From positions 1-35,676 of the forward strand of contig CATLBX010000004.1 in the NCBI GenBank assembly GCA_949879855.1: a stretch of DNA of 35,676 nt. The letters run 5' to 3'. This document shows positions 6,732 to 33,640 of this stretch, piece after piece. Within the stretch, counting starts at the first letter, position 1, and each line of letters opens with the position of its first letter. Origin of the DNA: an uncultured Coriobacteriia bacterium (GTDB taxonomy: Bacteria; Actinomycetota; Coriobacteriia; Coriobacteriales; QAMH01). The notes under the pieces were generated by a model. It made no database searches, was not told the origin of the DNA, and saw nothing but the letters and a program-made list of their open reading frames with translations. Made by a program: the position numbers and the translations under genes.

Positions 6732-6899
6732 GGGTTCCTCCTGCAGGTCGTGCCGGGGGCATGGACGCGTAGGAGCATATTTTGGCAGAGAGCAGGAGAG
6801 AAGAACGGGCACGTAAGGTCCCTTTCGCGCCGAGGGTGCGAAGGATGTCGCATGAGGGAGGGTCTATACGCCTCGAGCCTCCTGCCCCACGTCGCATGG

Positions 6900-6929
6900 G
6901 CCGAAGTCCTCGTAGCGCCAGCCGATGGA
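6900..6929 (-). pseudogene. 30-bp relic of DUF5648-module coding sequence
   Basis: gccgaagtcctcgtagcgccagccgatgga at 6900-6929 is identical to 9082-9111 inside the second DUF5648 module. Confidence 0.65.
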
Positions 6930-6933
6930 CCCG

Positions 6934-7809
6934 CTAGTTACCCGCGAGGTCCTTCCATTTGGCGCCATCCCCGACGCTGTCGGCAAGTTCGCGCAGATGC
7001 TCGTTGTTCGCAGCAGCAGCGCCGCGCAGGTCGACCTTGGCTCCCCTGTCCCTATACCAATCCGTGCCCTCGAAGTAATCCTGAAGGTCGGGATTGCTGA
7101 AATGGTGCCCCTCGCGCGCAAAGGGCTCGTTCCAGGCGATGCAAATCTCGGCCGGGGTCAGGCCCATGGCCTTGAGCTCGCCCATCCCGTATTCACGCGT
7201 GCTCGAGTCCGGCAGCACGTAGCCATCGGAATCGCGCCGCACGGTGCCCGTGAGCTTTTCGCCCGAAGCCGTGTAGACCACGAGCGTAACGGTGTCGGGA
7301 CTAGAAGGCGCATCCATAATGGAGGCCGAGGGATACGACGATGAGGAGGACGGCGCGCTGTTTTGCGGGACGAGCTGGGAGAACGCGTTCACGCCCCCTG
7401 CCGCACAGCCGCCGACGCCGAGGGTCGTGCATCCTCCGACCACCAGTACGAGCAGGAGGATCACGTCGACGAAGGAGATGACCGTGCCCGCGATGGCAAG
7501 ACCCTTCGGGGTCTTGGTCAGGCCAATGAGGGACAGGACGGCACCCAGAATCCAGAGCAGCCAGCCCGCCACCGGCACCCACGAAAGGAACAGCCCGAGC
7601 AAAGCGCACACAAAACCGGCTATGCCAATTCCGTTGCCTCCCGGCTGGGAAGCCTGTTGGTCTGGGGCGACCGGCTCGAACGGCTTGGTGGCATCGGGAC
7701 GCCGTGGCATGAAGGCTGGATCGTCAGCCGGCCTGTCGACCTTGGTTCCGCAGTGCTGGCAAAAGGCAGCGTCATCTGGAATATGCTTGCCGCAACGCGT
7801 GCAGTACAT
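6934..7809 (-). CDS. Zinc-ribbon membrane protein with C-terminal YARHG-like domain
   Basis: MYCTRCGKHIPDDAAFCQHCG zinc ribbon, two hydrophobic TM segments, then YVLPDSSTREYGMGELKAMGLTPAEICIAWNEPFAREGHHFSNPDLQDYFEGTDWY resembling YARHG. Confidence 0.8.
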   Translation of the reverse strand: MYCTRCGKHIPDDAAFCQHCGTKVDRPADDPAFMPRRPDATKPFEPVAPDQQASQPGGNGIGIAGFVCALLGLFLSWVPVAGWLLWILGAVLSLIGLTKTPKGLAIAGTVISFVDVILLLVLVVGGCTTLGVGGCAAGGVNAFSQLVPQNSAPSSSSSYPSASIMDAPSSPDTVTLVVYTASGEKLTGTVRRDSDGYVLPDSSTREYGMGELKAMGLTPAEICIAWNEPFAREGHHFSNPDLQDYFEGTDWYRDRGAKVDLRGAAAANNEHLRELADSVGDGAKWKDLAGN

Positions 7810-7865
7810 GATGGTTCCTCCCCGATGAAAAGTTGCTGGTATCAAAATACCATGCAAGGGTGGGA

Positions 7866-8282
7866 CTAGGAGAGGTGAGGGACGGCTTCCCGCGCCGTCA
7901 TCTTGGGAACGAACGACTTGCGAAACGCTTTTTTGTCATAGCTGATGATGGCGTCGACCTGCAACGCCTCGGCTACGCTGCGGATAAGGCCGTCCTCGTA
8001 GTCGGGCTCGTCGGAATCGAGCGCGGCAAACACCTGCAAACTCGTCAGGTCGACCAAGTCGAACGTCTCGGCAATGTCGCGGATCGACGCGCGCGCCTCC
8101 CCCTCGCGCATGCAATGGGAGTGAAGGGCATAGTAGATTTCGTTCAACGAAGAAGAGAGCGCATAGCACGATGCCTCCTGCTCAAACGCAGCGTGAAGCA
8201 AGTTCGACACATCATCATGAAATGGGGATGAGGGATACACCCAATACAAAAGGGCGTTGGCGTCAAAGAGAAGCGATTTCAC
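7866..8282 (-). CDS. PIN-domain (VapC-like) toxin
   Basis: MKSLLFDANALLYWVYPSSPFHDDV...; PIN acidic residues (FDAN, LNEIYYAL, DSDEPDYEDGLI, DAIISYDKKAF). Overlaps the upstream AbrB-type ORF. Confidence 0.82.
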   Translation of the reverse strand: MKSLLFDANALLYWVYPSSPFHDDVSNLLHAAFEQEASCYALSSSLNEIYYALHSHCMREGEARASIRDIAETFDLVDLTSLQVFAALDSDEPDYEDGLIRSVAEALQVDAIISYDKKAFRKSFVPKMTAREAVPHLS

Positions 8283-8562
8283 GGGCCCCGCGCTCCTTCC
8301 CCTCGCGCAGCAAGTCGTCCGCCGTCTTGCCCCGCGGCCACGGAGCCCGCGTCTTGCGAGAGGCGATTCGCTCCTCGGCCTCGCGCAGACGCGTCAGACG
8401 ATCCGCCGAATCATCGTAGACGGCGGTGATGACGACGACGCCCTTCCTGGGCGAATCGAGACGCAGGGAGGCGTCCGGCTCGATGCAGGCTTCCTGGCGC
8501 AGCGTCTTGGGCAGCAGCACGGCCATGCTGTTGCCAACTTTTGTGAGCGTGGACACGGTCAT
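8263..8562 (-). CDS. AbrB/MazE/SpoVT-type antitoxin (VapB-like)
   Basis: MTVSTLTKVGNSMAVLLPKTLRQEACIEPDASLRLDSPRKGVVVITAVY; swapped-hairpin AbrB N-terminus. Overlaps the toxin ORF by 20 nt. Confidence 0.8.
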   Translation of the reverse strand: MTVSTLTKVGNSMAVLLPKTLRQEACIEPDASLRLDSPRKGVVVITAVYDDSADRLTRLREAEERIASRKTRAPWPRGKTADDLLREGKERGAREIASL

Positions 8563-8584
8563 AATCACTCCAATCGTCGGGAGT

Positions 8585-8602
8585 ATTATGACGCGTTATA
8601 AT
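8585..8602. promoter_or_regulatory. Putative VapBC operator palindrome
   Basis: attatgacgcgttataat, 16/18 positions palindromic, 22 bp upstream of the antitoxin ATG. Confidence 0.5.
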
Positions 8603-8648
8603 TACGATAACCCTATGGGAACTGCCGCCTATGCGCAATGGGGCAACC

Positions 8649-8771
8649 ATGACCAACCTTGAGTCGTATCTGAAAAAACGCGGGATTACCGAAAAGCAGA
8701 TGGAAGAGGCACGCGGGCAAACAGAAGCCCCGCAAGTGATGACGCGTGCTGCGAGACACATCAAGAAATAG
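8649..8771 (+). pseudogene. Possible remnant of an antitoxin gene (short ORF MTNLESYLKKRGITEKQMEEARGQTEAPQVMTRAARHIKK)
   Basis: N-terminal segment resembles the leader of small XRE-type antitoxins from memory; no HTH follows and the ORF stops after 40 aa. Confidence 0.3.
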
Positions 8772-9009
8772 ATGAAGAGCTGTTGAAGGCCGAAATGGAA
8801 ACCTATCACGGTATCATGCGAGGTTACGAACAGTATCTCAATGGTGAAGCGACCCCTGCTGAGGAAATGTTCGCGAAAATACGAGCTGATCGCGGATGGG
8901 ATGAAGAGTGAGGCGACGAATCATGATTCATGAAATCCAAACCGGCATGATGCAGCACAAACTAATACAAGCGTAGTGTTTTTAGCAGTATTCCAGCGAA
9001 ACAAACCTG

Positions 9010-9034
9010 AGGCCGCCCATACGGACGGCCTTTT
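9010..9034 (+). terminator. Putative rho-independent terminator
   Basis: aggccg...cggcct stem followed by tttt. Confidence 0.45.
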
Positions 9035-9063
9035 CGTTGAGTTTCGCGGGCCAGCAAGCCTCG

Positions 9064-12000
9064 CTACTTCACGCCGTACCAGCCGAAGTCCTCGTAGCGC
9101 CAGCCGATGGAGACCAGATGGTCGCGCTCCACGTCGGAGGTGGTGTAGTGATGCGAGCCGGAGTTGTTGGTGGGGGCGCTCGGGTCGACGTTGGGGTTGA
9201 ACAGGCGGTGAAGCCCGATGCCCTGGGCGTCGTCGGAGTACCAGCCGATTCCCTCGTCGGACCAGCCCACGGATATGAGGTGGTCGCGCTCCACGACACT
9301 CGTGGTGTAGTGGTGGTCGGTGCCCGAGTACAGGCGGTAGACCGGGGTGGCAGAGGTCACCGGCGCCGTCCAGGCCTCGCCCTCGTAGAGCCAGCCGGCG
9401 GCCACGATGCTCTCTATCTCGGCGTAGTGCGCCGTGTAGAAGTGCTCGCCGGAGTTGGGGTTGTAGGCGCGGTACATCACCTGGGTGGCCACGGGTCGGG
9501 CGTGGCGGCGTCGGGATCGTCAGTACCAGGCTTATCCGTGCTCGGCTTGTCGGTGGTGCCGGGGTCGTCGGTGCCGGGGGTGTCCGGCTTCGGGTCGTTG
9601 GGCTTGGGCGTTGCAGCCTTCTTAATCTGGAACGTTACATTCTTCTCGCCCGTGTAGTTGCCCTTGCCCGTCACAATACAGGTTGCCGTTCCCTCGTTCA
9701 CGTTATTCTCATACGAAAGGGTGTAGTCGGTGCCCTTCGTCAGCGTCTGGGAATTGTATTTGACAACCGGCTCGGGAGTGAGCGCGGAGCCGGTATACGT
9801 TTGCTGAGCAATGGCGTCAATTGTTGCGTTCGCAATATCGGCCGGCTGCCCTTCCTCTGCAGGAGGGGCAACGATATCGAACTCGACTTCCTTCTGCCCA
9901 GAATACGCGCCCTTGCCTTTGACGATAGCCTTCGCCTTTCCAATAGCGCCGTTATTGAAGTATTCGACTGTATAGTCGTCACCATAAACGAGCAGATCAT
10001 CGCCCAGCCAGACCATAATGCCCGGCTCGACGGGCTTCCCATAATAGAAGGGAGCTTCCGAAACGCCCGCCTCCGCATTCGCAAGATTGTTCGTAGCGGT
10101 GGCATTTACGTCAATCTCCGAAATGGAGCTATCGTTCATGTCCGCCGCACAGGCAATCGCACGAATCTTCGTGGGCTGCATAACCGTTATGCCCTCGTCA
10201 GGATTGTATGCAGCGGTTGTATCCTGTGCGGGTTCCTCGCTTTCCTCATCGCTTGCTTGCGGCATAAAGAAATTCGCGAACGCCTCAAACGGGGCCAGAA
10301 ACGAAACGGGCTCTGCAACGGGAGCGATGGGGTCGCTTCCATCCGTTGTGTAGTAAATCTTTGCGCCCTCGGTCGGCGTCTCGAGAAAGACCTTAGTGCC
10401 TCCCTTGGCAACATAACCCTCTGCCAGTTCCACCGAAACATACGGTGAAGTCACTGTCCCCTCATAGGCAAACAGCGGCTTGACGACCAGATCACTCGTT
10501 ACGGACCACCATGGCGTTTCGCTCGTCGTACCCCAGCTTACAAACTCCATGCCATCAGCCGCCGGATTCGTTTCGGGAAGCTGCGCAGCCTTGCCATGCT
10601 CAACTTGTACGGTCTTGAAAGCCGCGCCCTTTGCGTCAACAAACATGACCGTGTGCATCTTGGGTTCGTATACCGCGGTCACCACCATGTTTCCAGTCAC
10701 CGTCGTAGTTCCGTCCAGGAGGGCATCCCAACCCTTGAAGGTGTAGCCAAAGTCGTCACCCCTGTCGGCTTGCTCCATTGGGGGCGTGAGAGTCTGCCCA
10801 TAAGCGCATGTTTCCAGAAATATTTCCTCTCCCTCATGGTCTACCCATGCCACAGTACACGTGCGCGGAGAGAAGAGTGCATTGATAACCAAGTTATTGT
10901 TCACGCCCGAAGACGTTCTGCTCCACCCCAAGAACGTGCTTCCCTGTCGCTCGGGGGCAGCCGGAACAACAGCATCCTCACCCTCGTTGACAAGCTGCTC
11001 GCTCACAGCCACGATGGAGCCATCCGCGTCCTCATACTGGTACGTCACCTTGTACTGCGGGGTCGGAGCCTTGATAGTGGCAACGTTGACGAGCCCCGTT
11101 GAGCCCTTGACGCCAAGGGCAACGATGAAGTCGCCACTCTCCACGCTCGGGTCCTGTCTCGGAATGAACTCGAAGGAATAGGTATTGTCGGCACCAATAA
11201 TGGTCTGACCGATGAACTGAACCTGGTCTTCGTTGGGGTCGGAGTTGGTCACGTTGTAGACCATGATAGTGGCTTCTTTGCCACTGAGGTCCGCTCCCGC
11301 AGCGAGCTTGCCGGAGATGCTTTGCTTCGTGCCGGACTTGTCCTCCTCGCCCTGAATCTGACCGGGCCGCTTTGTGCGATACCGATACGCGGTACGATTC
11401 TCGACCTCGCGATCAGGTGATGCAGATGCCTCCTCAAAGGCCCAATCAGTCCAATCTCCCCATTTCTGATAACCGTAGGTAATCGTTTTATCGCGCGTTT
11501 GATAGGTGTAGGTCGTGACGATAGATTTTGTCCACCAGTAGGACTGACCTTCACGCCTATGCGAACATGAGCTGTACGGTCCGTGCAAATCCCATGCCTT
11601 ACCGCCCTTATCGGCGAACTTGTTGGGGCAGGCCGCCATGGGAGAATTGAGCGTTATCTCATGATATGTACAGTTAGAACCATAGGCTTTTGAATCCTGA
11701 TTCTGGCATCGGTCGTAGTAATTGCACCAGCGATAGTACGTATACTTGGTCGACTGCCCAACAATCTGCAACGTATCATTCGTTCCCGGTTTGCTCGTCG
11801 TGTACTTATAGCCACTCCAAGCGCCGTACGATGTCGTGTCCTTGCTGTTGCGATCCCAACCCGCGAGAGAGGGCGCGGTGCTCGTCGTGAATTGCCTATC
11901 GCGATACCTGTACTGCACGGCCTCTTCTACCTCGACCGTATCCGACGCAGCGGGCTTCTCGGTCGACCACTCGGACCAGTCGGTGAAGTAGAAGTTATCC

Positions 12001-14725: not shown

Positions 14726-15883
14726 CTAGAAGCGCAATGCTGCAGTCCATCCTCCACGACAGCTCTCGACGACGCCCCACCGCGTTCCCATGGCCTCGAT
14801 GCAGCTGATGCCGCCCGTGGAAATACCCACGTGACCGGGCTTGTAGAGCACGTCGCCGGGCTGGGCCTCGCTCGGGCTGAACCGTGCCGAGGCGACCGCG
14901 TAAAGCGATTCGGTATAGGACGGCAGTGAAATGCCGATCTGGCGATAGCACCAGGCCACGAATCCCGAGCAGTCGAACGCGTCGGGGCCCTTCGCGCCCC
15001 AGACGTACGGATGCCCCAGCTTCGAGTACGCGTAATCGAGCACGCCACCGTTCGTGGGGGTGCTCGGTGCTGCCCCCGACCCGGACGAGACCTCCGTGAT
15101 GGAGCTGGAGCCACCCGAAGCGCTGGGAGACCCGCCCACGTCGCCGTCGGTCGTGATGCCCGACCCGCCCGTATCGGGAGAGGGGGCCGGGGTGCTGGGC
15201 ACCACCTGCACCGCGCTCGGGACGAACTCCTGCGGCGCGCGGGCGCTCGCCTGGGCCTCGGCGGCCTCCTGCTCGGCAAGGATCTGGCGGTACTCCGCGC
15301 TCAGGTTGTTGTAGATCCTGTCGTACTCGCTTTGCTTGGCGAGCACCTGGTTCATGTAGGCCTCCGCCGAGGAGAGCTGGTCGGCCGCGCGCTGCTGCTG
15401 CGCGATAAGCTCGCCTTGCGCGGACTCGAGCGTCGCCTTCGTGACCTTGGTGCTGGCGACGAGGTCGGCGTCTTCGGCATTGAGGGCGTTAAGGGTGTCC
15501 CACACGGTCGCGAAGTCCTCGAAGGTGCTAACGCCCAGGAGCACGTCGAGATACGAGGTCGAACCCGAGCGGTACATGGCCGTCGCGCGCACGTCGAGGC
15601 GTTCCTGCAAGCTGCCGATGCGCTCCGACATCTCGGTGATGGTCGCCTGCGCCTCCTCGACACGTGCCGTGGCGTCATCGTAGGCATCCATGGCCTGGTG
15701 GTAGCGGTCGCCGGCGGCGGAGACGTCCTCGGCCATGGCCTCGAGTTGGGCCTTGACGGTACGGACCTCGGCCTGCTTCTGCGCGGCCGTGACACCGAGT
15801 GCCTGCGTGGGATTGATGGTGCATAACGCGCCCAGGGCGACGAACGAGCCGACAAGTGCCCTGCGATTGAGAATAGTAGACAT
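14726..15883 (-). CDS. Secreted NlpC/P60 endopeptidase with N-terminal coiled coil
   Basis: MSTILNRRALVGSFVALGALCTINPTQALGVTAAQKQAEVRTVKAQLEAM...; GHPYVWGAKGPDAFDCSGFVAWCYRQ, PGDVLYKPGHVGISTGG. Confidence 0.93.
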   Translation of the reverse strand: MSTILNRRALVGSFVALGALCTINPTQALGVTAAQKQAEVRTVKAQLEAMAEDVSAAGDRYHQAMDAYDDATARVEEAQATITEMSERIGSLQERLDVRATAMYRSGSTSYLDVLLGVSTFEDFATVWDTLNALNAEDADLVASTKVTKATLESAQGELIAQQQRAADQLSSAEAYMNQVLAKQSEYDRIYNNLSAEYRQILAEQEAAEAQASARAPQEFVPSAVQVVPSTPAPSPDTGGSGITTDGDVGGSPSASGGSSSITEVSSGSGAAPSTPTNGGVLDYAYSKLGHPYVWGAKGPDAFDCSGFVAWCYRQIGISLPSYTESLYAVASARFSPSEAQPGDVLYKPGHVGISTGGISCIEAMGTRWGVVESCRGGWTAALRF

Positions 15884-16021
15884 AGCGCGTCCCCCAATGC
15901 AACGTTAGAAGTACATATTGGGTTCTCTGCGCAGGCTATGGTACCACCGTGGCGAACGCACGCCGACAAGGACGAATCGATGTCACAGACTCATCACATG
16001 TGTGGAGGGACGGTGATGGAG

Positions 16022-17077
16022 CTAGGGGCGCACGATCTTTCCACGCACGCTCGAGATGCGCACCGTCGCGCCGGTGTGCGGGGCCTCGATCATCTGACCG
16101 TTACCGATGTACAGGCCGCAGTGGCCCGCGTGGCAAGCGACGACGTCACCCGGTTGCGGGTCGCTCACCTCGGGCATGGCCCAGAAGTCCTGGGAGACGT
16201 AGGCGTGACCGAAGCTGCCCGTCAGCGCCCAGCTCACGAGACCGGAGCAGTCAAAGGCGCTGGAACTGCTCGCACCGTAGACGTAGGGCAGGCCAATGGC
16301 CGAGTAGGCACGCTCGACCGCGCTGGAGCCACCGACGTTGCCACTGGGACGCGAGGAGCTGCTGCTCTTGCTGCCACTGCCACCGCCACTGTTGCCACCG
16401 CTGGAAACCGAGGGGAAGTACGCCGCGCTTGCCGCAGCCGCGGCCTGGGCCTGGGCTGCCTGCTCTTGCTCGAGAAGTTCCTGGTACTCGGAGCTCAGGC
16501 CGTTGTAGATGGACTGGTACTGGGCGGTCTTGGATTCGATTTCGGTCCTGTAGGACGCGGCGATGTCGAGCTGGCGCTGGGCCTCGGCCTGCTTGGCGTC
16601 AAGATCTGCCTTGGCGGCATCGAGCTCGGCCTTTGCCTGCTTGCTGCTCACCACGAGGTCGGCATCTTCCGCGTTGAGCGTGTTGAGGGTGTCCCACACG
16701 GTCGCGAAGTCATCGAAGGAACCCACGCCCATGAGCACGTCGAGGTAGGTCATGGAACCTGAGCGGTACATCGAGGTCGCACGCGTCTCGATGCGCGTCT
16801 GCAGCGAGTTGATCTTTGCCTGGGCGTCGTTGATGCGTTGCTGGCATTCCTCGGCTTCGGCGACGGCCTGGTCATGATTGCGGTTTGCGAGGTTGAAGTC
16901 GTCGACGGCAAGGGAGAGCTCGTCATTGAGCGCGTTGAGCTGCGCGGAGACGCTCTGGATTTCGGCCTGCTTCTGCGCGGCCGTGACGGCACCAGCGCTC
17001 ACGGGAAAGAGCGTCAAGGCGAGTGCCGCGGACAACACGAATGCCAGGGCCGCCTTGCGCTTCATTGGGATATGCAT
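16022..17077 (-). CDS. Secreted NlpC/P60 endopeptidase with N-terminal coiled coil (paralog)
   Basis: MHIPMKRKAALAFVLSAALALTLFPVSAGAVTAAQKQAEIQSVSAQLNAL...; GLPYVYGASSSSAFDCSGLVSWAL. The longer ORF start (17542) is rejected because it overlaps the neighbouring gene in another frame. Confidence 0.93.
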   Translation of the reverse strand: MHIPMKRKAALAFVLSAALALTLFPVSAGAVTAAQKQAEIQSVSAQLNALNDELSLAVDDFNLANRNHDQAVAEAEECQQRINDAQAKINSLQTRIETRATSMYRSGSMTYLDVLMGVGSFDDFATVWDTLNTLNAEDADLVVSSKQAKAELDAAKADLDAKQAEAQRQLDIAASYRTEIESKTAQYQSIYNGLSSEYQELLEQEQAAQAQAAAAASAAYFPSVSSGGNSGGGSGSKSSSSSRPSGNVGGSSAVERAYSAIGLPYVYGASSSSAFDCSGLVSWALTGSFGHAYVSQDFWAMPEVSDPQPGDVVACHAGHCGLYIGNGQMIEAPHTGATVRISSVRGKIVRP

Positions 17078-17258
17078 AGTTAAGAATCCTAACTGCCCGC
17101 TCACACCCGGACCCCGGAGCAGACGGTTTGCTTCGCTCGTTGAGCGTCTATGGTAACACCCGCGCGTGCTCCTGTCTAAAAACGCAGTTCCGCACCACAA
17201 TATCTTGATATGCGCAGGCTCGAAAACACTACGCACCCCTGTCGATACAACAGTGGCG

Positions 17259-18161
17259 CTACGAGAAGGAGAGGCAGAAGGCGTCGAGCAGGAGGACGGC
17301 GAGGTGTTGCTCCCAACGCTCGCCCGAAACCACGCCGACGACCTCCGAATAGCCCTGGGTGGGAATCTCGATGATGACGCGTCGCGGCGTCGTCTTTGCC
17401 GATGACAGGGCGATGCCGATGCGACGCGCAAACATGAAGTCATCGGAGAACTCGATGAGCGGAATACCGTCCTGGCCATCGACCTCGTTCGAGGTGATGC
17501 CAACCATGAGCATGTTGGAAGGAGGAAACGCCTCGAGCGCATCGGCGCTCATGACATGCGCGTCTTCGGAAGTGGCGCGGGCGAGGTTCGCCACGCGCGA
17601 GGCGACCCCGCGGCCGATTTCGTCCAGCCCGTAGAAGCACGCCTCCATCTTCTCAAGCGCCTCGGCCGCACGCGCGAAGCCCATCTGGGCACCTTCGGCA
17701 CTCGTCGGCTCCTTGCCCTCCCAGGCATGGCGCAGGCGCTCGATTGCATCGTAGGTGGTGGTACCCGCGATGCCATCGTCCATGATTCCCACGCTCAGCT
17801 GGAAGTCACGCAGGGCACGCTCGGTGTGCGCCCCGAAGATGCCGTCGGACTTACCGACGACGAAGCCGAGCACTTCGAGAATCTTCTGCAGCGATCGCAC
17901 GTCGGCGCCGTGGAAATGGGGCATGCGCAGGTAGAGCATGCGGTCGCCGAGTGCGAAGCTCGCGTCGACCAGCGCCGACCAGGCCTGCTGGTCGACGAAG
18001 TCGCCCGGCGGTAGCCCCTCAGATTGCCTAAACTTCCTGACCGCATCGCACGTGCGCTGGAGATACGCGCCATCGACGGCAAGCTCGTAGCCCATGACGC
18101 GCAGGCGTCGTTGCACGTCCTCCACGGCGGCACCGTGATCGTTGCGGCCAATCGTCCTCAT
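17259..18161 (-). CDS. Protein with two peptidoglycan-binding domains and a divergent, possibly amidase-derived C-terminal domain
   Basis: GRNDHGAAVEDVQRRLRVMGYELAVDGAYLQRTCDAVRKFRQSEGL and GADVRSLQKILEVLGFVVGKSDGIFGAHTERALRDFQ: two PG_binding_1-type repeats. Confidence 0.83.
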   Translation of the reverse strand: MRTIGRNDHGAAVEDVQRRLRVMGYELAVDGAYLQRTCDAVRKFRQSEGLPPGDFVDQQAWSALVDASFALGDRMLYLRMPHFHGADVRSLQKILEVLGFVVGKSDGIFGAHTERALRDFQLSVGIMDDGIAGTTTYDAIERLRHAWEGKEPTSAEGAQMGFARAAEALEKMEACFYGLDEIGRGVASRVANLARATSEDAHVMSADALEAFPPSNMLMVGITSNEVDGQDGIPLIEFSDDFMFARRIGIALSSAKTTPRRVIIEIPTQGYSEVVGVVSGERWEQHLAVLLLDAFCLSFS

Positions 18162-20709: not shown

Positions 20710-21633
20710 CTAGACCTTGAGGTAGCGGCGCATCGCGATGGCCGAGCCCAACATGCCGATGAACACGCCGGCCACGATGAGCACGAGATAGATGGCGGAG
20801 TACACGCCCGGGTCGACCGACAGCGGCAGGAAGCTCACCATGTTCTCGAGGGCGGGGAACACCGTCACGCGCACGAGCGATAAGACGATGATCGCGAACA
20901 GGGCGCCCACCAGCGCCTGTAGCGCGCCTTCCGTCACGAACGGTCCACGAATGAAGCCGTTGGTGGCACCCACCAGACGCATGATCGAGATCTCGCGCCT
21001 GCGTGCCAGAATCGCGAGGCGGATCGTGTTGTTAAGGAAGACGAGCGAGATGAACACGAGCAGCACGACCGCCACGATGCACGCATAGCGGATGACGTTG
21101 GTGACGGCGAAGAGGCGCTCGACCGTGCCCTGCCCGTACTTGATGGAGTCGGACGGGTCCTCGGGATTGTCGGCGATCGCCGTGAAGGTCTCGCTTCCGA
21201 GAATCGCGCTCACCGTGTCTTGCACCTTGTGCGTGTCACGCAGCGTGATGACGTAGGTGCGCGGCAGCGGGTTGCCATCGAGCTGGTTGACGATGTCGGG
21301 GTTGTTCGCGGTCTGGCGCTGGAAGTCCTCCAGGACCTGGTCCTTGTTGCGGAAATCGACCGAGGCAATGTTGCCCGCGTCGTTCTCGAGCGTCTTGAGA
21401 TAGTTGTCGAGGCTCGTTATCTGCTCGTCGGTGGCCTCGTCCGAGATGTAGAGGCGCACGTTGACCTCGTCCTCGAACGAGGAGGCGAGGTTGCCGATCA
21501 TGATCGAGATGATGATGGTCACGCCGATCATGAGAAGGGACAGGAAGATGGTGACGATGCCACCGATGGTCGTGCCGAGATTGCGGCGCGAGCTGATGAT
21601 GGACTCTTTGAGGAAGTAGATGATCTTAGACAT
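20710..21633 (-). CDS. ftsX: Cell division protein FtsX
   Basis: MSKIIYFLKESIISSRRNLGTTIGGIVTIFLSLLMIGVTI...; four TM segments, LARRREISIMRLVGATNGFIRGPFVTEGALQALVGAL. Confidence 0.95.
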   Translation of the reverse strand: MSKIIYFLKESIISSRRNLGTTIGGIVTIFLSLLMIGVTIIISIMIGNLASSFEDEVNVRLYISDEATDEQITSLDNYLKTLENDAGNIASVDFRNKDQVLEDFQRQTANNPDIVNQLDGNPLPRTYVITLRDTHKVQDTVSAILGSETFTAIADNPEDPSDSIKYGQGTVERLFAVTNVIRYACIVAVVLLVFISLVFLNNTIRLAILARRREISIMRLVGATNGFIRGPFVTEGALQALVGALFAIIVLSLVRVTVFPALENMVSFLPLSVDPGVYSAIYLVLIVAGVFIGMLGSAIAMRRYLKV

Positions 21634-22672
21634 CGTATCCGTACACTCCCTTCTTCTGATCGCGGACGAGCGTGCCGTTCTCGAGGGCGAGCACGCGACG
21701 GCGCATCTGGTCGACCATCTCGCGGTCGTGCGTGGCGACGAGAATGGTCGTGCCCGTGCGGTTAATGCGCTCGAGCAGACGCATGATGCCCAGGGAGGTC
21801 TGGGGATCGAGGTTACCAGTCGGCTCGTCGCAGATGAGGATGGGCGGACGGTTGACGATGGAACGCGCGATGGACACGCGCTGCTGCTCGCCGCCGGAAA
21901 GCTGGTCGGGAAGCTTGTCCATCTTGTCCTCGAGGCCGACGAGGCGCAGGACCTCGGGGACCTGGGTGCGGATGACATGGCGTGACTTGCCGATTACCTC
22001 AAGCGCGAAGGCGACGTTCTCGAACGCCGTCTTGTTGGGAAGGAGCTTGAAGTCCTGAAACACGCAGCCGACGCTGCGACGCAGGTACGGGATGCGCCAG
22101 TTCTTGATGGTGCGCAGGTTCTCGCCAGCGACGACGAGCTCGCCGCTCGTGGGAACGATTTCGCGGTTGAGCATGCGGATGAAGGTCGACTTGCCCGAGC
22201 CGGAGTGGCCGACGAGGAACAGGAACTCGCCCGAGCGGATGTCGAGCGTGATGTTGGCGAGCGCGGGCCTGTTGGGCTGCGCCGGGTACACCTTGGTGAC
22301 GTTTCGCATCGAGATGACGACCGGGCCGAGGTTCTGTTTCGCGTTCTCGTCGAGCGCGAGGTCGGCATAGGAGCCAACGGCCTCGGTGGCTGCCGGCATG
22401 CTGGAAGTGGACAGCGGATTCATCTGTCCCGTCTGGTTGGGCTGGGCCGCCTGACGCTGACGCCCGGTGGCACCCGCGACGTTGCGACGAACATCGACGT
22501 TGCTCTCGGCGTCGATACGCGGAAGGCGCGCATCCATCTGCCTGGTCACGCGCGGGTCGTTTGCCGGACGTTGTTCGTTTGCTTGGGGCGCGTGGGCCGA
22601 TTGCCCGCGCGACTTTGACGAGCGGCCGCCCGCTGCATGGGCGCCACGCGACGATTTGCCGAATATTGCCAC
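21626..22672 (-). CDS. ftsE: Cell division ATP-binding protein FtsE with about 115-aa N-terminal extension
   Basis: ISMRNVTKVYP, GHSGSGKST, LSGGEQQRVSIARSIVNRPPILICDEPTGNLDP; GTG start with CGGAG seven nt upstream. Overlaps ftsX by 8 nt. Confidence 0.93.
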   Translation of the reverse strand: MAIFGKSSRGAHAAGGRSSKSRGQSAHAPQANEQRPANDPRVTRQMDARLPRIDAESNVDVRRNVAGATGRQRQAAQPNQTGQMNPLSTSSMPAATEAVGSYADLALDENAKQNLGPVVISMRNVTKVYPAQPNRPALANITLDIRSGEFLFLVGHSGSGKSTFIRMLNREIVPTSGELVVAGENLRTIKNWRIPYLRRSVGCVFQDFKLLPNKTAFENVAFALEVIGKSRHVIRTQVPEVLRLVGLEDKMDKLPDQLSGGEQQRVSIARSIVNRPPILICDEPTGNLDPQTSLGIMRLLERINRTGTTILVATHDREMVDQMRRRVLALENGTLVRDQKKGVYGYDV

Positions 22673-25815: not shown

Positions 25816-28572
<2,757 letters not shown>

Positions 28573-28718
28573 GATTCATGCCTTTATTTTCTGAAACGAT
28601 ATTGGCGTCTGCACTACTTTATCACAGGTCAATGGCGCCCTTTCCTCACGAGTGGGGAACAAATGCATGCCCATAGAAGCCACACATCACGTCCGTGCCA
28701 CTTTCGCCTTTCCGTACG

Positions 28719-31385
28719 TCAGCCCATCTTCTGCGTAAGCGCCACCTCCAGCCGCAGCAGCTCGGGGTCGGTGGTGACGAGCGCGTTGTAGAGCTCCCGC
28801 GTCTCGATGGACGGATCGAGCCCGAGGGTGCTTTGCAGGTAGTCACGGCACGAGAGAAACGTCTTGATGGCCGGGCAGCGCTGGCCCGAGGCGATCTGCG
28901 CCTTCATGAGCACGCGGTACACGTCCTCGCGACCCTGGTCCTCCTCCATGGCCTTGCGTGCGAACCACAGGGCGATGCGCGTGTCGTGTACCCGCAAGGC
29001 GCATTCCGTCGCCGCGACCATGGCATCGACGTACAGCGCACGGTAGCGGTCGCGCTGGGCGTTGACGGCGCGTATGCCCCTTTCGCTGGGTATGAGCTCT
29101 CCCCGGTAGAGGACCTCGATCTTCGCGTAGGTGTCGAGCAGGTAGTTCGCGTCGTGGTCCGAGACGAGCAGATGCCGCGTGAGCTGCTCGAATTCGGCGA
29201 CATCGGAGCGCACGAACCGCGGGTCCACGCGGCAGTACTCGCCATTGCGCTCGAGATAGGGCGCCTCGCCGACTATCGAGACGCAATTGGCCCAGACGGT
29301 ATAGAAATTATCGAGCGCATGGGTGCGTGATAACCCCGGCCACAGCTGCTTGAAGAGGTCTTCACGGGGTACGTCGCGACCGTGGTTGAGCACGAGCAGG
29401 GCAAAGAGCGCGCGGGCCTTCTTGCGCCACTTGCCCTCGCTGAGAAACGCGTCGCCGATGGTGACCTCGAAGCCACCGAACAGGCGCACGTACATCTCGT
29501 CGGCTCTCGTGGCGGCAACGTCGGGACCCGGGGTCTTGACGGCATCCTGGGAGGACAACCCCCGCAGCTCCCAGGGAATCGAGGCGGATTCCCGTCCGCA
29601 ACAGGCGGCGAGCATTCCGAGCATGTGGGCGGCGCCGTCGAGGACCTTGGCATCGCGCCGGTCGACGACCGGGCCAACCAACCCGAAGTACCCCGTTTGC
29701 CACATGTCACGCACGAGCAGGGCCTCCGAGAAGGTCGACACCCCGCAGCGGCGCATCCTGAGCACGGCATCGCATCCCAGCTCCTGGACAAGACGACGCA
29801 AGCCGGGATTGTCCACATGGGCGAGCACGTGCAGGCCAAGCCTGAATGCCCGGGTGTCGCCAATGGACTCGGCGTTCTGGGTGAACAGCGCGCCGAGCTG
29901 TCGCACCCGCTGCTTGCCCGGACCGCGCCGCACCTTTTCGTACCTGAGGTCATCGTCGGGCCCGGCAGGGCAGAACGCCCGCGCAAGCTCGGCGTTCGTG
30001 CACGAGTCGAGCACGTTGGCGACAAAGGCCAGGGCACTTGGCGCAGTATCTTCTGACGAGAGCGCGTATTGCTCGTTGTCGACGATCGCGTTCTCGTCGA
30101 ACTGGGCGAGGACGATGCGCGCCGCGACGCTCGCGGCATCGGGCTTCTCGGCTGAGCCCTGCATAACGAGGACGCGTCGTGCGATATGGCAGGCCTCGCG
30201 CGCGTCTCCGGACAGGCCGGCTACCCAGGCGTGAATCGCCTGCAACGTGCCACTTGCCGCGTACGTCGCCTCGGGGCAGCGGTCGAGCAACGTGGAGACA
30301 AGATGCACCTCGCCCGCATCGAGGAAATCCCAACCGTGCTCGACGAGCCAGGCCGCGCAACGCTCGTCATTGCAGAAAGCGTCGATGATGGCGGAGCCAC
30401 GACGCAGGTCACCGCGCCTGAACAACGCGCCGAGCACACGTTCGGAAAGCGCATGGCTACCCTCGAGCACGACCGGCTCGAGCTTGTTGGCAAGAATCGC
30501 CCACCTCAGGTCGGCCAGCTCGAAGCCGGCGACCCCGAACGCTCCCGAAACCGTGTCGATGCCAAAGATCGGATAATCGCGCACGAGCAGGGACAGGTCC
30601 TCGTTCCTGAGAGTGACGCCAACGCCCCCGAGGTCATGCATCGTCCCCGTCTTGAACAAGAGCATGGCGAACATGCCGCGCACGAGCTCGAGAGGCAGCT
30701 TCTCGGAGAACAGCTCCTTGAGGCACTGGCGCTGCGCCATCGTGCTTTCGCCCCAGATGACCGCCGGGGCATGGCCGAACAGCAGCTTGCCGGCATCGAC
30801 CCAGCGCTTCTTGCCAAACGCCCGACTACCGCCATCTTGCTCCGTCACCTGGCGGGGAGCGCACTCCTGCTCGGAGACGAGCAGGTCGGCTGCGTGTATG
30901 CAGAGGCAATCGGATTGCAGGGCACTGAGGGAGTCGCAGGTTGGCGTCGTGGTCATGACGACCTCGATGCCGACATAGAGGGCGGCCTCGATGTGCCGCG
31001 AGAGCATGTTGGCGCGTTGCTCGCGCAGCCAGGGCACGTCATCGAGAACGACCAGGCTCGCAGGGGCGCCTCGCCGCAAGATCGCGTTGTCGTTCCCGTC
31101 AAGCGAGAGCAGGAAGTCGGGACTCGAGGCATCGACCCAGTTGACGGCGTCGGTGCGAAAGAGGCGTTGCGCGTATTCGCGGGCGAGCTCCGTCTTCCCA
31201 AAACCATGTGGGGCCGTGATGACCCGCAGGACATTGCGCTCCTGGAGCATCGTCGATATGAGCTCGTCTCGCTTTACGTGTCCTGCCGACAGCGCCTGCG
31301 TGCACGCGTCCTTCGCGAAACCGTGCCGTTGACTCCCGCCCGCGTCCTCCAATGCCCCGAAATCGAGCTTCAGTTCCTCGTCCAT
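28719..31385 (-). CDS. Large transcriptional regulator: N-terminal P-loop NTPase plus C-terminal winged-helix/BTAD (SARP/AfsR-like)
   Basis: Walker A-like VITAPHGFGKTELAREYA, LVVLDDVPWL; C-terminal VRLFGGFEVTIGDAFLSEGKWRKKARALFALLVLNHGRDVPREDLFKQLWP then BTAD-like helices (YRALYVDAMVAATE...REDVYRVLMKAQIASGQRCPAIKTF). Start ATG at 31385 chosen over ORF start 31448. Confidence 0.85.
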   Translation of the reverse strand: MDEELKLDFGALEDAGGSQRHGFAKDACTQALSAGHVKRDELISTMLQERNVLRVITAPHGFGKTELAREYAQRLFRTDAVNWVDASSPDFLLSLDGNDNAILRRGAPASLVVLDDVPWLREQRANMLSRHIEAALYVGIEVVMTTTPTCDSLSALQSDCLCIHAADLLVSEQECAPRQVTEQDGGSRAFGKKRWVDAGKLLFGHAPAVIWGESTMAQRQCLKELFSEKLPLELVRGMFAMLLFKTGTMHDLGGVGVTLRNEDLSLLVRDYPIFGIDTVSGAFGVAGFELADLRWAILANKLEPVVLEGSHALSERVLGALFRRGDLRRGSAIIDAFCNDERCAAWLVEHGWDFLDAGEVHLVSTLLDRCPEATYAASGTLQAIHAWVAGLSGDAREACHIARRVLVMQGSAEKPDAASVAARIVLAQFDENAIVDNEQYALSSEDTAPSALAFVANVLDSCTNAELARAFCPAGPDDDLRYEKVRRGPGKQRVRQLGALFTQNAESIGDTRAFRLGLHVLAHVDNPGLRRLVQELGCDAVLRMRRCGVSTFSEALLVRDMWQTGYFGLVGPVVDRRDAKVLDGAAHMLGMLAACCGRESASIPWELRGLSSQDAVKTPGPDVAATRADEMYVRLFGGFEVTIGDAFLSEGKWRKKARALFALLVLNHGRDVPREDLFKQLWPGLSRTHALDNFYTVWANCVSIVGEAPYLERNGEYCRVDPRFVRSDVAEFEQLTRHLLVSDHDANYLLDTYAKIEVLYRGELIPSERGIRAVNAQRDRYRALYVDAMVAATECALRVHDTRIALWFARKAMEEDQGREDVYRVLMKAQIASGQRCPAIKTFLSCRDYLQSTLGLDPSIETRELYNALVTTDPELLRLEVALTQKMG

Positions 31386-31398
31386 GACCGTACCTCCC

Positions 31399-31656
31399 TC
31401 AGAGCAGCGTTTCGCACACGAGGAAGACGACCTGGGATAGCGCCGCATGCGGCGTGCACGTGACTGCGATCGCGCAGATGAGCAGGAGCATGCCGCCTGC
31501 AGAGAGCAGGCATGACACGATGAGCAACGCGCGTGGCTGGCGCACCTCGCGCGCCCCTTGGCCCTCGGGGGCCTCGTCTCGTGAAAACCGGGCGAGACGC
31601 TCCATTATGGCCGGGGCGCTTTCCTGCGAAGGTGCAGGTGGAACCACAATGCTCAT
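31399..31656 (-). CDS. Small membrane protein, 85 aa
   Basis: Pro/acid-rich N-terminus, then hydrophobic ALLIVSCLLSAGGMLLLICAIAVTCTPHAALSQVVFLVCETLL; 13 bp upstream of the regulator gene, same strand. Confidence 0.6.
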   Translation of the reverse strand: MSIVVPPAPSQESAPAIMERLARFSRDEAPEGQGAREVRQPRALLIVSCLLSAGGMLLLICAIAVTCTPHAALSQVVFLVCETLL

Positions 31657-31718
31657 CTTGACTCCTCGCTATCGCTCTTGCGAGAAGGCAGGGTACCCGC
31701 ACCGATTATCGCGCTCGT

Positions 31719-31749
31719 GAAAAATCATCTCCACAAGATATGATTTTTC
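31719..31749. repeat. Perfect 10-bp inverted repeat, AT-rich
   Basis: gaaaaatcat ctccacaagat atgatttttc. Confidence 0.8.
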
Positions 31750-31750
31750 G

Positions 31751-31764
31751 CAAACCATGGTTTG
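31751..31764. promoter_or_regulatory. Perfect 14-bp palindrome, candidate operator
   Basis: caaaccatggtttg. Confidence 0.5.
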
Positions 31765-31771
31765 AATTAGC

Positions 31772-31781
31772 GTTACGTAAC
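31772..31781. promoter_or_regulatory. Perfect 10-bp palindrome, candidate operator
   Basis: gttacgtaac. Confidence 0.4.
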
Positions 31782-31787
31782 TCGCAT

Positions 31788-32492
31788 CTATTCCACCACG
31801 GCGCTGATGTCTATGTGGACCTTCAGAAGGCGCACGCCCTTGACGTCAATGAGTACGTCGCGACATATCCGCTTGAAACCGCTTCTCTCGAGGGCACCGT
31901 GCCCGACAAGGTCACCATAGGGCATGTCGCTCGTGACAATCTGGGGCTCAGCGGGCCTGGTCGCATGCCAGCGACCCGACTCCGCGAGATGCAGCACATC
32001 GGCACGCGAGTTGTCATGCTCGACGAGCCTGCTCAGGTCGATGCTGACATCGACACCCGATTTTCCGTAGATGATGTTATAGATGCCGCAGTACATGACG
32101 AGAAAGGCAAGGAGCACATCGCCCGCCTCGCGGTGGGTGCACACGATGATGAGCTTGAGGCGTTCGGGGTGGCTTTCCTTCCGGAAGAAGCTCTCGAGCC
32201 CCATGGCCATGTCGTCGGCGTCCATGAAATACGCCTCGTCGATGATCGCGAGGCTTCCGCCTGCCGCGATGGTGTTGTGGAGCACGTTTTCGAGCGCTCC
32301 TTCGTGAGGTGGATTGAAACGCAAGTCGATGTCATCCCCTAGCACCGACGTGAAGTAACCGCTTCTCTCGTGCGTCGTCAGAACGACCGCACCCTTGGAA
32401 TCGCATGGAGTCTTCATCTGCCCAATCCCCCCTATGATGATATGTCCCTGCCCGTGCACGCACCTCCTTGCCCTATAATCCCTTGTGGTCAT
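31788..32492 (-). CDS. P-loop NTPase-like protein with degenerate Walker A
   Basis: GHIIIGGIGQMKTPCDSKGAVVLTTHE (degenerate P-loop), GGSLAIIDEAYFMDADD (Walker B-like), LKLIIVCTHREAGD. Start codon uncertain: ATG 32492, GTG 32459 or ATG 32417. Confidence 0.6.
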   Translation of the reverse strand: MTTRDYRARRCVHGQGHIIIGGIGQMKTPCDSKGAVVLTTHERSGYFTSVLGDDIDLRFNPPHEGALENVLHNTIAAGGSLAIIDEAYFMDADDMAMGLESFFRKESHPERLKLIIVCTHREAGDVLLAFLVMYCGIYNIIYGKSGVDVSIDLSRLVEHDNSRADVLHLAESGRWHATRPAEPQIVTSDMPYGDLVGHGALERSGFKRICRDVLIDVKGVRLLKVHIDISAVVE

Positions 32493-32515
32493 GACTATAT
32501 GACGGGCCCTAGTAG

Positions 32516-32998
32516 ATGGGAAGGCAAATGACCGGTAAACCGCAGCGGGACATGCCCAAGGAGACGATTCGGGTCGCCGTCGGCGAAGACGTCTACGCTT
32601 CGGTACTGCCGTTGCTCAAGAACGACGCCCTGACCTTTGCGAGCGTAAGCCAGCTCGTCGAGACCATCGTCTTTCTATCCGAACACATCTATGTCGCGGA
32701 AATCGATGACAGCTTCGTCATCGGACTCGTGAAGCTACGGGCGAACAGGACCATCGCCCAAATCAGAGATCCGCGGCTTACGGCATCGCGCTACATACAC
32801 GTCACGCTCGACGTGGGCGCGGTCGAATTCCTCGATTTGCTCGTGCGCAAGTATCACACGCTCTTCAGGAACCGCAGTGACGTCATGGAACTCCTGCTCC
32901 TCAACATCGGGCAGGAATGCGATACGCCAAGCGGGATTCGCTATTACGCAAACAGGCTTGCCGAGGTGCTCAGCTTGCACCCCACCCGCAAACGATAG
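32516..32998 (+). CDS. Hypothetical protein, possible tandem ribbon-helix-helix regulator
   Basis: Two similar segments: IRVAVGEDVYASVLPLLKNDALTFASVSQLVETIVFLS and IHVTLDVGAVEFLDLLVRKYHTLFRNRSDVMELLLLNI. Divergent from the 31788-32492 gene. Start may be ATG 32528. Confidence 0.6.
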   Translation: MGRQMTGKPQRDMPKETIRVAVGEDVYASVLPLLKNDALTFASVSQLVETIVFLSEHIYVAEIDDSFVIGLVKLRANRTIAQIRDPRLTASRYIHVTLDVGAVEFLDLLVRKYHTLFRNRSDVMELLLLNIGQECDTPSGIRYYANRLAEVLSLHPTRKR

Positions 32999-33001
32999 GC
33001 C

Positions 33002-33640
33002 CTATTTCTCGCGTTCGAGGCGCTTCTTGTGCGCGGCGACGATCTGCTCGGAGCGCATGCGCAGGGTGCCGGAGGCGTTCTCGGAATCGAACTTCATGCG
33101 CTGCGCGAGTGCGGAGCTCGTGGCAAGCGAGATGTTCCCCTCGGCGAAGGCGACGAGCTGCATGAGCATGTCGGTGAATTCGGGATTGCCGTGATAGCAC
33201 TGGATGGCCTCGTCGATCTGCGTCCAGACCTCCTCGGAGTTATCCACCGAAGCGCTCCCGTAACCGCAGAAGAAGTGGAACGCGGCCTCGCGCACGAAGC
33301 CGTTCGTCTCGTCATAGAGCGAATCCTCCGCGGCGACGAGCACGTCCTCGTCATAGCGCTGGCCGGCCTTGCCCATCTGGTCGAGCGCGTGCAGGACCTC
33401 CCAGCGCGTCTGCGCCTCGGGCTTGGTCAGGCCGCTTGCGATGTCATCAGCGTAGGGCAGCAGCACGCTCGCGTCCTTGCTGGCGATGAGCGCCACGGTC
33501 GAGGCGGCCTTCTGGCGACGGATCCTGCTCGACCCGGCTATCTCCTGCGCGAGCGCATCGACAATGTCTTCGTCGACAAGCGCCTGCTCGGCCAGGGCCT
33601 CGCGCTCCTCCGCCGTGCCAATCTTCAGTTCCTCTGCCAT
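33002..33640 (-). CDS. HEAT-repeat-like hypothetical protein
   Basis: Alpha-helical repeats: RRQKAASTVALIASKDASVLLPYADDIASGLTKPEAQTRWEVLHALDQM... Confidence 0.7.
   Translation of the reverse strand: MAEELKIGTAEEREALAEQALVDEDIVDALAQEIAGSSRIRRQKAASTVALIASKDASVLLPYADDIASGLTKPEAQTRWEVLHALDQMGKAGQRYDEDVLVAAEDSLYDETNGFVREAAFHFFCGYGSASVDNSEEVWTQIDEAIQCYHGNPEFTDMLMQLVAFAEGNISLATSSALAQRMKFDSENASGTLRMRSEQIVAAHKKRLEREK

Follow-up and report, generated by a model that had tools for sequence, protein, structure and literature searches.

Several described systems resemble parts of the locus examined here. In the large SARP (AfsR-type) and SARP-LAL regulators of Streptomyces, a winged helix beside a BTAD domain and a P-loop NTPase are combined in one large protein; SARPs carry the winged helix-BTAD part at the N terminus (PMC10972967). 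MalT and the LAL regulators of the STAND class have an N-terminal P-loop NTPase, a long middle part and a C-terminal DNA-binding domain. Receiver folds are familiar from response regulators such as VpsT, and in TadZ (PMC13170226) and TsfV of T7SSf (PMC11217815) an atypical receiver sits at the N terminus of a larger, ATPase-like protein. Among ribbon-helix-helix (RHH) proteins, F-plasmid TraY is a monomer that carries the full RHH dimer fold, and R1 TraY reaches this fold as a dimer (PMC12117103). Here we compare these systems with four genes, orfA to orfD, in a 35,676-nucleotide window, contig 4 in a genome assembly of 226 contigs from an uncultured Coriobacteriia bacterium (GCA_949879855.1, CATLBX010000004.1). 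An initial annotation, made from the window's sequence, had proposed that the four form a single signalling locus. In our best reading they are instead two separate modules: a STAND/BTAD regulator linked to secA, whose membrane partner is specific to the family, and an independent pair of a receiver-like and a tandem-RHH protein that is restricted, as far as we searched, to a single small family, apparently from animal guts. We give this reading, including the mechanism described below, a probability of about 0.5.

As the initial annotation had stated, four open reading frames lie between secA and the citrate synthase gene (gltA), where they are flanked by secA on one side and by HEAT and citrate synthase genes on the other. 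They were found at roughly the positions first noted:

28719..31385, minus strand: orfA, STAND-like P-loop NTPase, winged-helix and BTAD regulator, 888 amino acids from the better start at ATG 31385
31399..31656, minus strand: orfB, 85-amino-acid protein with a C-terminal hydrophobic segment, its stop 13 nucleotides before the orfA start
31788..32417, minus strand: orfC, predicted stand-alone receiver-like protein of 209 amino acids, folded over residues 7-146, disordered over 149-183, then a C-terminal tail
32418..32527, no strand: divergent control region of orfC and orfD, 110 bp; it holds the codons of a supposed broken Walker A motif, untranslated if ATG 32417 is the start
32528..32998, plus strand: orfD, predicted tandem RHH DNA-binding protein of 156 amino acids, motif 1 at residues 11-57 and motif 2 at residues 87-128

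The window's family (f1) comprises seven species in our genome collection, G000 to G006, with G000 being the window genome. We computed the ratio of nonsynonymous to synonymous substitution rates (dN/dS) between G000 and its sister species G006, and obtained 0.034 for orfD, 0.065 for orfA and 0.086 for orfC, with 0.024 for secA as a comparison. These values point to strong purifying selection on three of the four genes. For orfB the ratio was 0.57, from 13 changes only.

Each of the seven f1 genomes carries both orfC and orfD, always adjacent and divergent. Among 294 other sampled genomes of the order neither was found, save for a receiver-domain match to orfC in G013 and a match in G068 that lies within a 653-amino-acid frame, nitrilase-like by eye, and that we took as likely chance. 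A phylum-wide search recovered orfD only in the window's own genome, and one additional weak, partial match to orfC. The relatives found via orfC come from uncultured Coriobacteriia, Coriobacteriaceae and Coriobacteriales assemblies, one of them labelled horse faeces; the RUG-labelled assemblies are presumably of rumen origin. The surroundings of the pair vary (some flanking genes were named by inspection): HEAT-gltA plus the regulator in G000, G006 and G005, HEAT-gltA in G001, isocitrate dehydrogenase and then HEAT in G002, clpB and a methyltransferase in G004, and a Ser/Thr kinase and a prolyl isomerase in G003. In G003 the pair is placed about 86 kb into a contig of 111 kb and the regulator and secA lie on another contig, both far from the contig ends. 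The pair is also apparently unlinked from the regulator in G001, as far as short contigs show. Given these variable surroundings and the separation in G003, we regard orfC-orfD as one unit of which orfA is no obligate part.

These results bear directly on the single locus first proposed, in which a membrane sensor would feed a STAND regulator, with an inactive NTPase and an RHH repressor as its modulators. In its favor, G000, G006 and G005 carry all four genes side by side, and in G004 they fall within about 6 kb of each other. However, three of these four genomes belong to a single genus, and across relatives the four genes are not conserved together, the outcome that the initial annotation had itself named as refuting its proposal: in G003 the two parts are on different contigs, many kilobases from the ends, and the regulator stands beside secA without orfC or orfD in five other families of the order. 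Nor does orfC have a P-loop. We consider a single four-gene locus very unlikely, and largely refuted by the linkage pattern.

The regulator, on the other hand, has a widely shared neighbor:

25816..28572, minus strand: secA, downstream neighbor of the orfA regulator, widely conserved
28573..28718: gap of 146 bp separating orfA from secA

We detected the regulator in all seven f1 genomes, and some match to it in 184 of 201 genomes of the order, often best over the C-terminal part. Linkage to secA was judged at 35 loci with enough sequence. The regulator is upstream of and co-directional with secA in f1 (7/7), f2 (15/16), f4 (2/2), f6 (3/3), f7 (1/1) and f8 (2/2), or 30 of 31 loci in these families, a fraction that is no unbiased estimate because the loci were chosen mostly among the better regulator matches. 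One f5 locus and three f10 loci were examined, and in none of them is it beside secA. In the linked loci, wherever the contig extends far enough, prfB and transketolase genes come after the regulator and secA. Judged from these comparisons, the regulator is old in the order, and in most of the order's families it holds a fixed place ahead of secA-prfB. In the open-licence literature we found no paper that connects secA with a BTAD regulator in this order.

The domains of orfA are as follows:

31191..31214, minus strand: Walker A, APHGFGKT, residues 58-65, from an alignment of eight orthologues, GKT in 7/8
31038..31055, minus strand: Walker B, LVVLDD, residues 111-116, from the same eight-orthologue alignment
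29337-29423, minus strand: weak winged-helix match, residues 655-683, directly before the BTAD
28779..29204, minus strand: BTAD domain, residues 728-869, Pfam PF03704, E 1.1e-13

This agrees with the N-terminal NTPase and C-terminal winged-helix/BTAD originally described. The frame considered at that time began at 31448; ATG 31385 is the better start, with a Shine-Dalgarno sequence AGGGAGGT at 31392-31399. Eight orthologues from three families align full-length, with 28-54% identity to the window protein. Walker A and Walker B are kept in the eight, conservative changes aside, and the C-terminal winged helix-BTAD region is conserved across the alignment. The BTAD was found in 8/8 orthologues and the winged helix (Trans_reg_C) in seven of eight members, with its best value (9e-4) in an orthologue and a match below cutoff in the window protein. 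All Pfam AAA matches to the N-terminal region were below cutoff. In NCBIfam, the AfsR model aligns with the C-terminal part of orfA (E 6e-8), and there is a weak match to MalT. Similar to the large SARPs, orfA combines a putative winged helix, a BTAD and a P-loop NTPase in one large protein, yet it has the NTPase first and the winged helix-BTAD last (BTAD 728-869 of 888), and it is linked to secA rather than to an antibiotic cluster. Its layout follows that of MalT and the LAL regulators, except that the C-terminal output is a winged helix-BTAD and not a LuxR helix-turn-helix. By its sequence, orfA is a probable STAND-like activator with the domain order reversed relative to large SARPs.

A small membrane protein had been noted directly upstream of orfA in the same direction, and we find orfB there, a short protein with a single strongly hydrophobic stretch. 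Because its stop is only 13 nucleotides ahead of the orfA start, the two genes probably share one transcript. An orfB-like hydrophobic protein precedes the regulator in G000, G005, G001 and G004 but not in G003, a near-identical orfB is present in G006, and the G002 contig is cut at this position. Counted by genus, the upstream hydrophobic protein occurs in g1, g2 and g5 (three of the five f1 genera) and is absent from g4, and the g3 contig is cut. No such partner was found among tested loci of other families, except a 53-amino-acid hydrophobic frame further upstream of the regulator at locus L102 that we took as chance. We also rejected orfB as a TMEM230/134 relative; the Pfam TMEM_230_134 match was below cutoff and was treated as chance. 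A small hydrophobic protein directly upstream of an NTPase-BTAD regulator makes a membrane-linked STAND-like regulator plausible, so this part of the original hypothesis survives, while the four-part system around orfA is unsupported.

The description of orfC as a P-loop-like protein with a broken Walker A has to be abandoned. Its best start, from the Shine-Dalgarno sequence (AGGGGGG, 9 nucleotides upstream) and a homologue alignment, is ATG 32417. The supposed motif, GQGHIIIGGIGQ, lies upstream of this likely start and its codons include the Shine-Dalgarno sequence. Five distant homologues have no counterpart of the segment, with similarity beginning after it, and over this stretch G006 differs from G000 by no synonymous and one non-synonymous change. 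We therefore take the motif as likely leader sequence and reject it as a Walker A. The AlphaFold2 model of orfC is a (beta-alpha)5 fold over residues 7-146, with pLDDT above 90 over most of it; beyond residue 146 a disordered segment is followed by a poorly placed tail, and there is no C-terminal ATPase with a deviant Walker A. The best solved fold match is the VpsT receiver (prob 0.97, E 0.04). Matches to designed TIM-barrel structures were taken as chance. According to the model, orfC is receiver-like and no NTPase.

One residue is of particular interest:

32238..32240, minus strand: Asp60 codon of orfC, end of beta-3, the phospho-acceptor position of receivers

Asp60 is invariant in the seven f1 members and in two aligned element-borne relatives. 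With response-regulator receivers such as VpsT, orfC shares the fold, the Asp after beta-3 and a conserved Ser/Thr after beta-4. It departs from them in that the canonical acidic pair after beta-1 is not conserved (TT-x-ER is found there), the Lys after beta-5 is present only in g1 sequences, no output domain is fused, and the partner is encoded divergently. Based on the alignment, orfC is a putative atypical receiver, in which the receiver Asp is kept and the full phosphorylation site is not.

The divergent, RHH-like DNA-binding candidate of the initial annotation is orfD, and its predicted model adds that the motif is a tandem double. The AlphaFold2 model (pLDDT 86.6, pTM 0.83) shows beta-alpha-alpha twice. 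Against F-plasmid relaxosome chains of 102 to 120 residues, which we read as TraY, the match has prob 0.99 and TM 0.69 on target, with E 0.22. Annotated viral RHH proteins likewise match orfD, and we regard F-plasmid TraY as its most credible solved match. As in TraY, two RHH motifs are predicted in a single chain. Unlike TraY, with which it shares about 10% identity, orfD is longer and has a C-terminal helix, and in the loci read we recognized no relaxase or other transfer gene next to the pair.

Within the 110 bp that separate orfC from orfD are TATAAT at 32474-32479 on the plus strand and, at 32488-32503, the weak inverted repeat GTCATGACTATATGAC. Between G000 and G006, 2 of these 110 bases differ, versus 7.9% at four-fold sites (binomial P 0.007), and this low divergence is modest evidence for constraint on the region. 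By eye, the C terminus of orfC reads LLKVHIDISAVVE and the second ribbon strand of orfD reads RYIHVTLDVGAVEF (32786-32812). Strand pairing between the two is possible, as judged from these sequences.

The closest relatives of orfC outside f1 form the N-terminal domains of larger proteins that are ATPase-like, the same position that the receiver takes in TadZ and TsfV. The receiver domain of G013 matches orfC with an hhalign P of 1.8e-6 over 136 columns and that of G365 with P 4e-4; further profile matches are in G111, G103, G385 and G386. The G111 gene has VirD4/TraG-like coupling protein, SSB-like and cell-wall-peptidase-like genes as neighbors (several named by sequence inspection), and an ATPase gene that matches the TraG P-loop weakly precedes the G103 receiver-ATPase gene. 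Such transfer-type neighbors indicate conjugative elements. In both G013 and G365, a short RHH gene is divergent from the receiver-ATPase gene. In G013, a large surface protein with SpaA-like stretches (by inspection) is encoded downstream of the receiver-ATPase gene (locus L083, contig C264, 3-1727, minus strand). The label MinD/TadZ-like for the C-terminal part of the receiver-ATPase proteins comes from their layout and from a stretch that looks P-loop-like by eye; searching Pfam and the PDB with these proteins did not confirm the likeness, and nothing useful was found in the PDB. For its part, orfC differs from TadZ and TsfV in being a stand-alone domain; it gave no direct match to TadZ sequences or structures, and we saw neither Tad nor T7SS genes alongside it. 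A phage or plasmid origin is not supported: tblastn for orfC in phages, tblastn for two receiver-ATPase proteins and orfD in plasmids, and a scan of viral contigs with orfC returned no relative.

We propose the following mechanism for the two modules. With an N-terminal STAND-like NTPase, a helical middle and a C-terminal winged helix and BTAD, orfA would be an ATP-switch transcription activator. Its partner orfB, probably on the same transcript in f1, most likely holds orfA at the membrane or reports the state of the membrane or of secretion. ATP-bound orfA would then activate its promoters and might influence secA. In the second module, orfD as a single-chain double RHH would bind the 110-bp divergent region and repress both genes, and perhaps others, and orfC would bind orfD and relieve or tune the repression. 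The architecture of this pair resembles the divergent arrangement of an RHH gene and a receiver-ATPase-like gene on mobile-element-like contigs, minus the ATPase part. It is tempting to speculate that the pair is a chromosomally fixed descendant of such a conjugative-element module that lost its ATPase domain, and is now a new type of two-protein switch in which a stand-alone, phosphorylation-independent receiver acts on a single-chain double RHH, perhaps via pairing of its C-terminal strand with the RHH ribbon. We offer this origin tentatively and think it rather unlikely as a whole; a common origin of the entire divergent RHH and receiver arrangement is likewise a hypothesis.

Several observations weigh against our two-module reading. 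The fold matches of both orfC and orfD are weak by E-value, the inverted repeat is chance-sized, and no operator motif common to the f1 intergenic regions was found. Similarity to orfD is marginal for the G013 RHH protein (P 0.0035) and absent for its G365 counterpart (P 0.16), so two separate origins of the common layout are conceivable. On the regulator side, the selection signal of orfB is weak, the linkage loci were not a random sample, and in G004 the regulator frame (locus L073, contig C216, about 6377-9298) has an in-frame TAA that separates the NTPase and BTAD halves, which may reflect a broken gene or an assembly error.

Other functions can be considered for the pair. It could be a DNA positioning or segregation module, in which orfD would sit on chromosomal sites like TraY or the small RHH centromere-binding proteins and orfC would dock it to a partner at the cell pole or membrane in the manner of TadZ. 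The F relaxosome match of orfD, the fusion of orfC-domain relatives to ATPase-like domains on conjugative elements, and the localization of the Tad pilus machine by CpaE/TadZ with its atypical receiver (PMC13170226) would all fit. However, orfC lacks the ATPase part, for which no homologue was found in f1 at the sensitivity used, and neither a relaxase nor a Tad gene adjoins the pair in the loci read; we find a positioning role unlikely. Family-wide conservation, very low dN/dS and variable neighbors could also describe a family core pair whose function is unrelated to transcription and whose positions near secA and gltA are incidental. The confident DNA-binding fold modelled for orfD and a control region more conserved than four-fold sites speak against this, and we hold it to be quite unlikely.

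RHH antitoxins are common, and the obligate pairing of orfC with orfD would suit a toxin-antitoxin system with orfD as the antitoxin. Yet a divergent orientation is unusual for such pairs, the receiver-like orfC has no known toxin fold, Pfam, PADLOC and PHROG gave no toxin match, and the pair is present in every f1 genome. A toxin-antitoxin pair is highly improbable. A role in anti-phage defence was rejected as well, as PADLOC gave no meaningful match for any of the four or for the HEAT protein.

Elsewhere in the window, a HEAT-repeat-like protein (33002-33640, minus strand) adjoins citrate synthase and is kept in several f1 genomes. A 920-amino-acid protein (4050-6812, minus strand) combines a papain-family (C1) peptidase domain with a lectin-like and a DUF5648 domain and is probably secreted or surface-exposed. 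Two adjacent genes at 14726-17542 (minus strand) encode PcsB-like coiled-coil and NlpC/P60 cell-wall hydrolases, and an FtsX gene lies a few kilobases away at 20710-21978. An Rfam search of the window gave two tRNAs and no other structured RNA.

In place of a speculative four-part signalling system, our analysis leaves two units that can each be tested. In most families of the order a large ATP-switch regulator stands immediately ahead of secA, and this placement suggests a link between regulation and protein export. The orfC/orfD pair is the less ordinary, little-studied half. Its receiver has relatives on conjugative elements, and the pair may show how parts of a mobile element are turned into a regulator.

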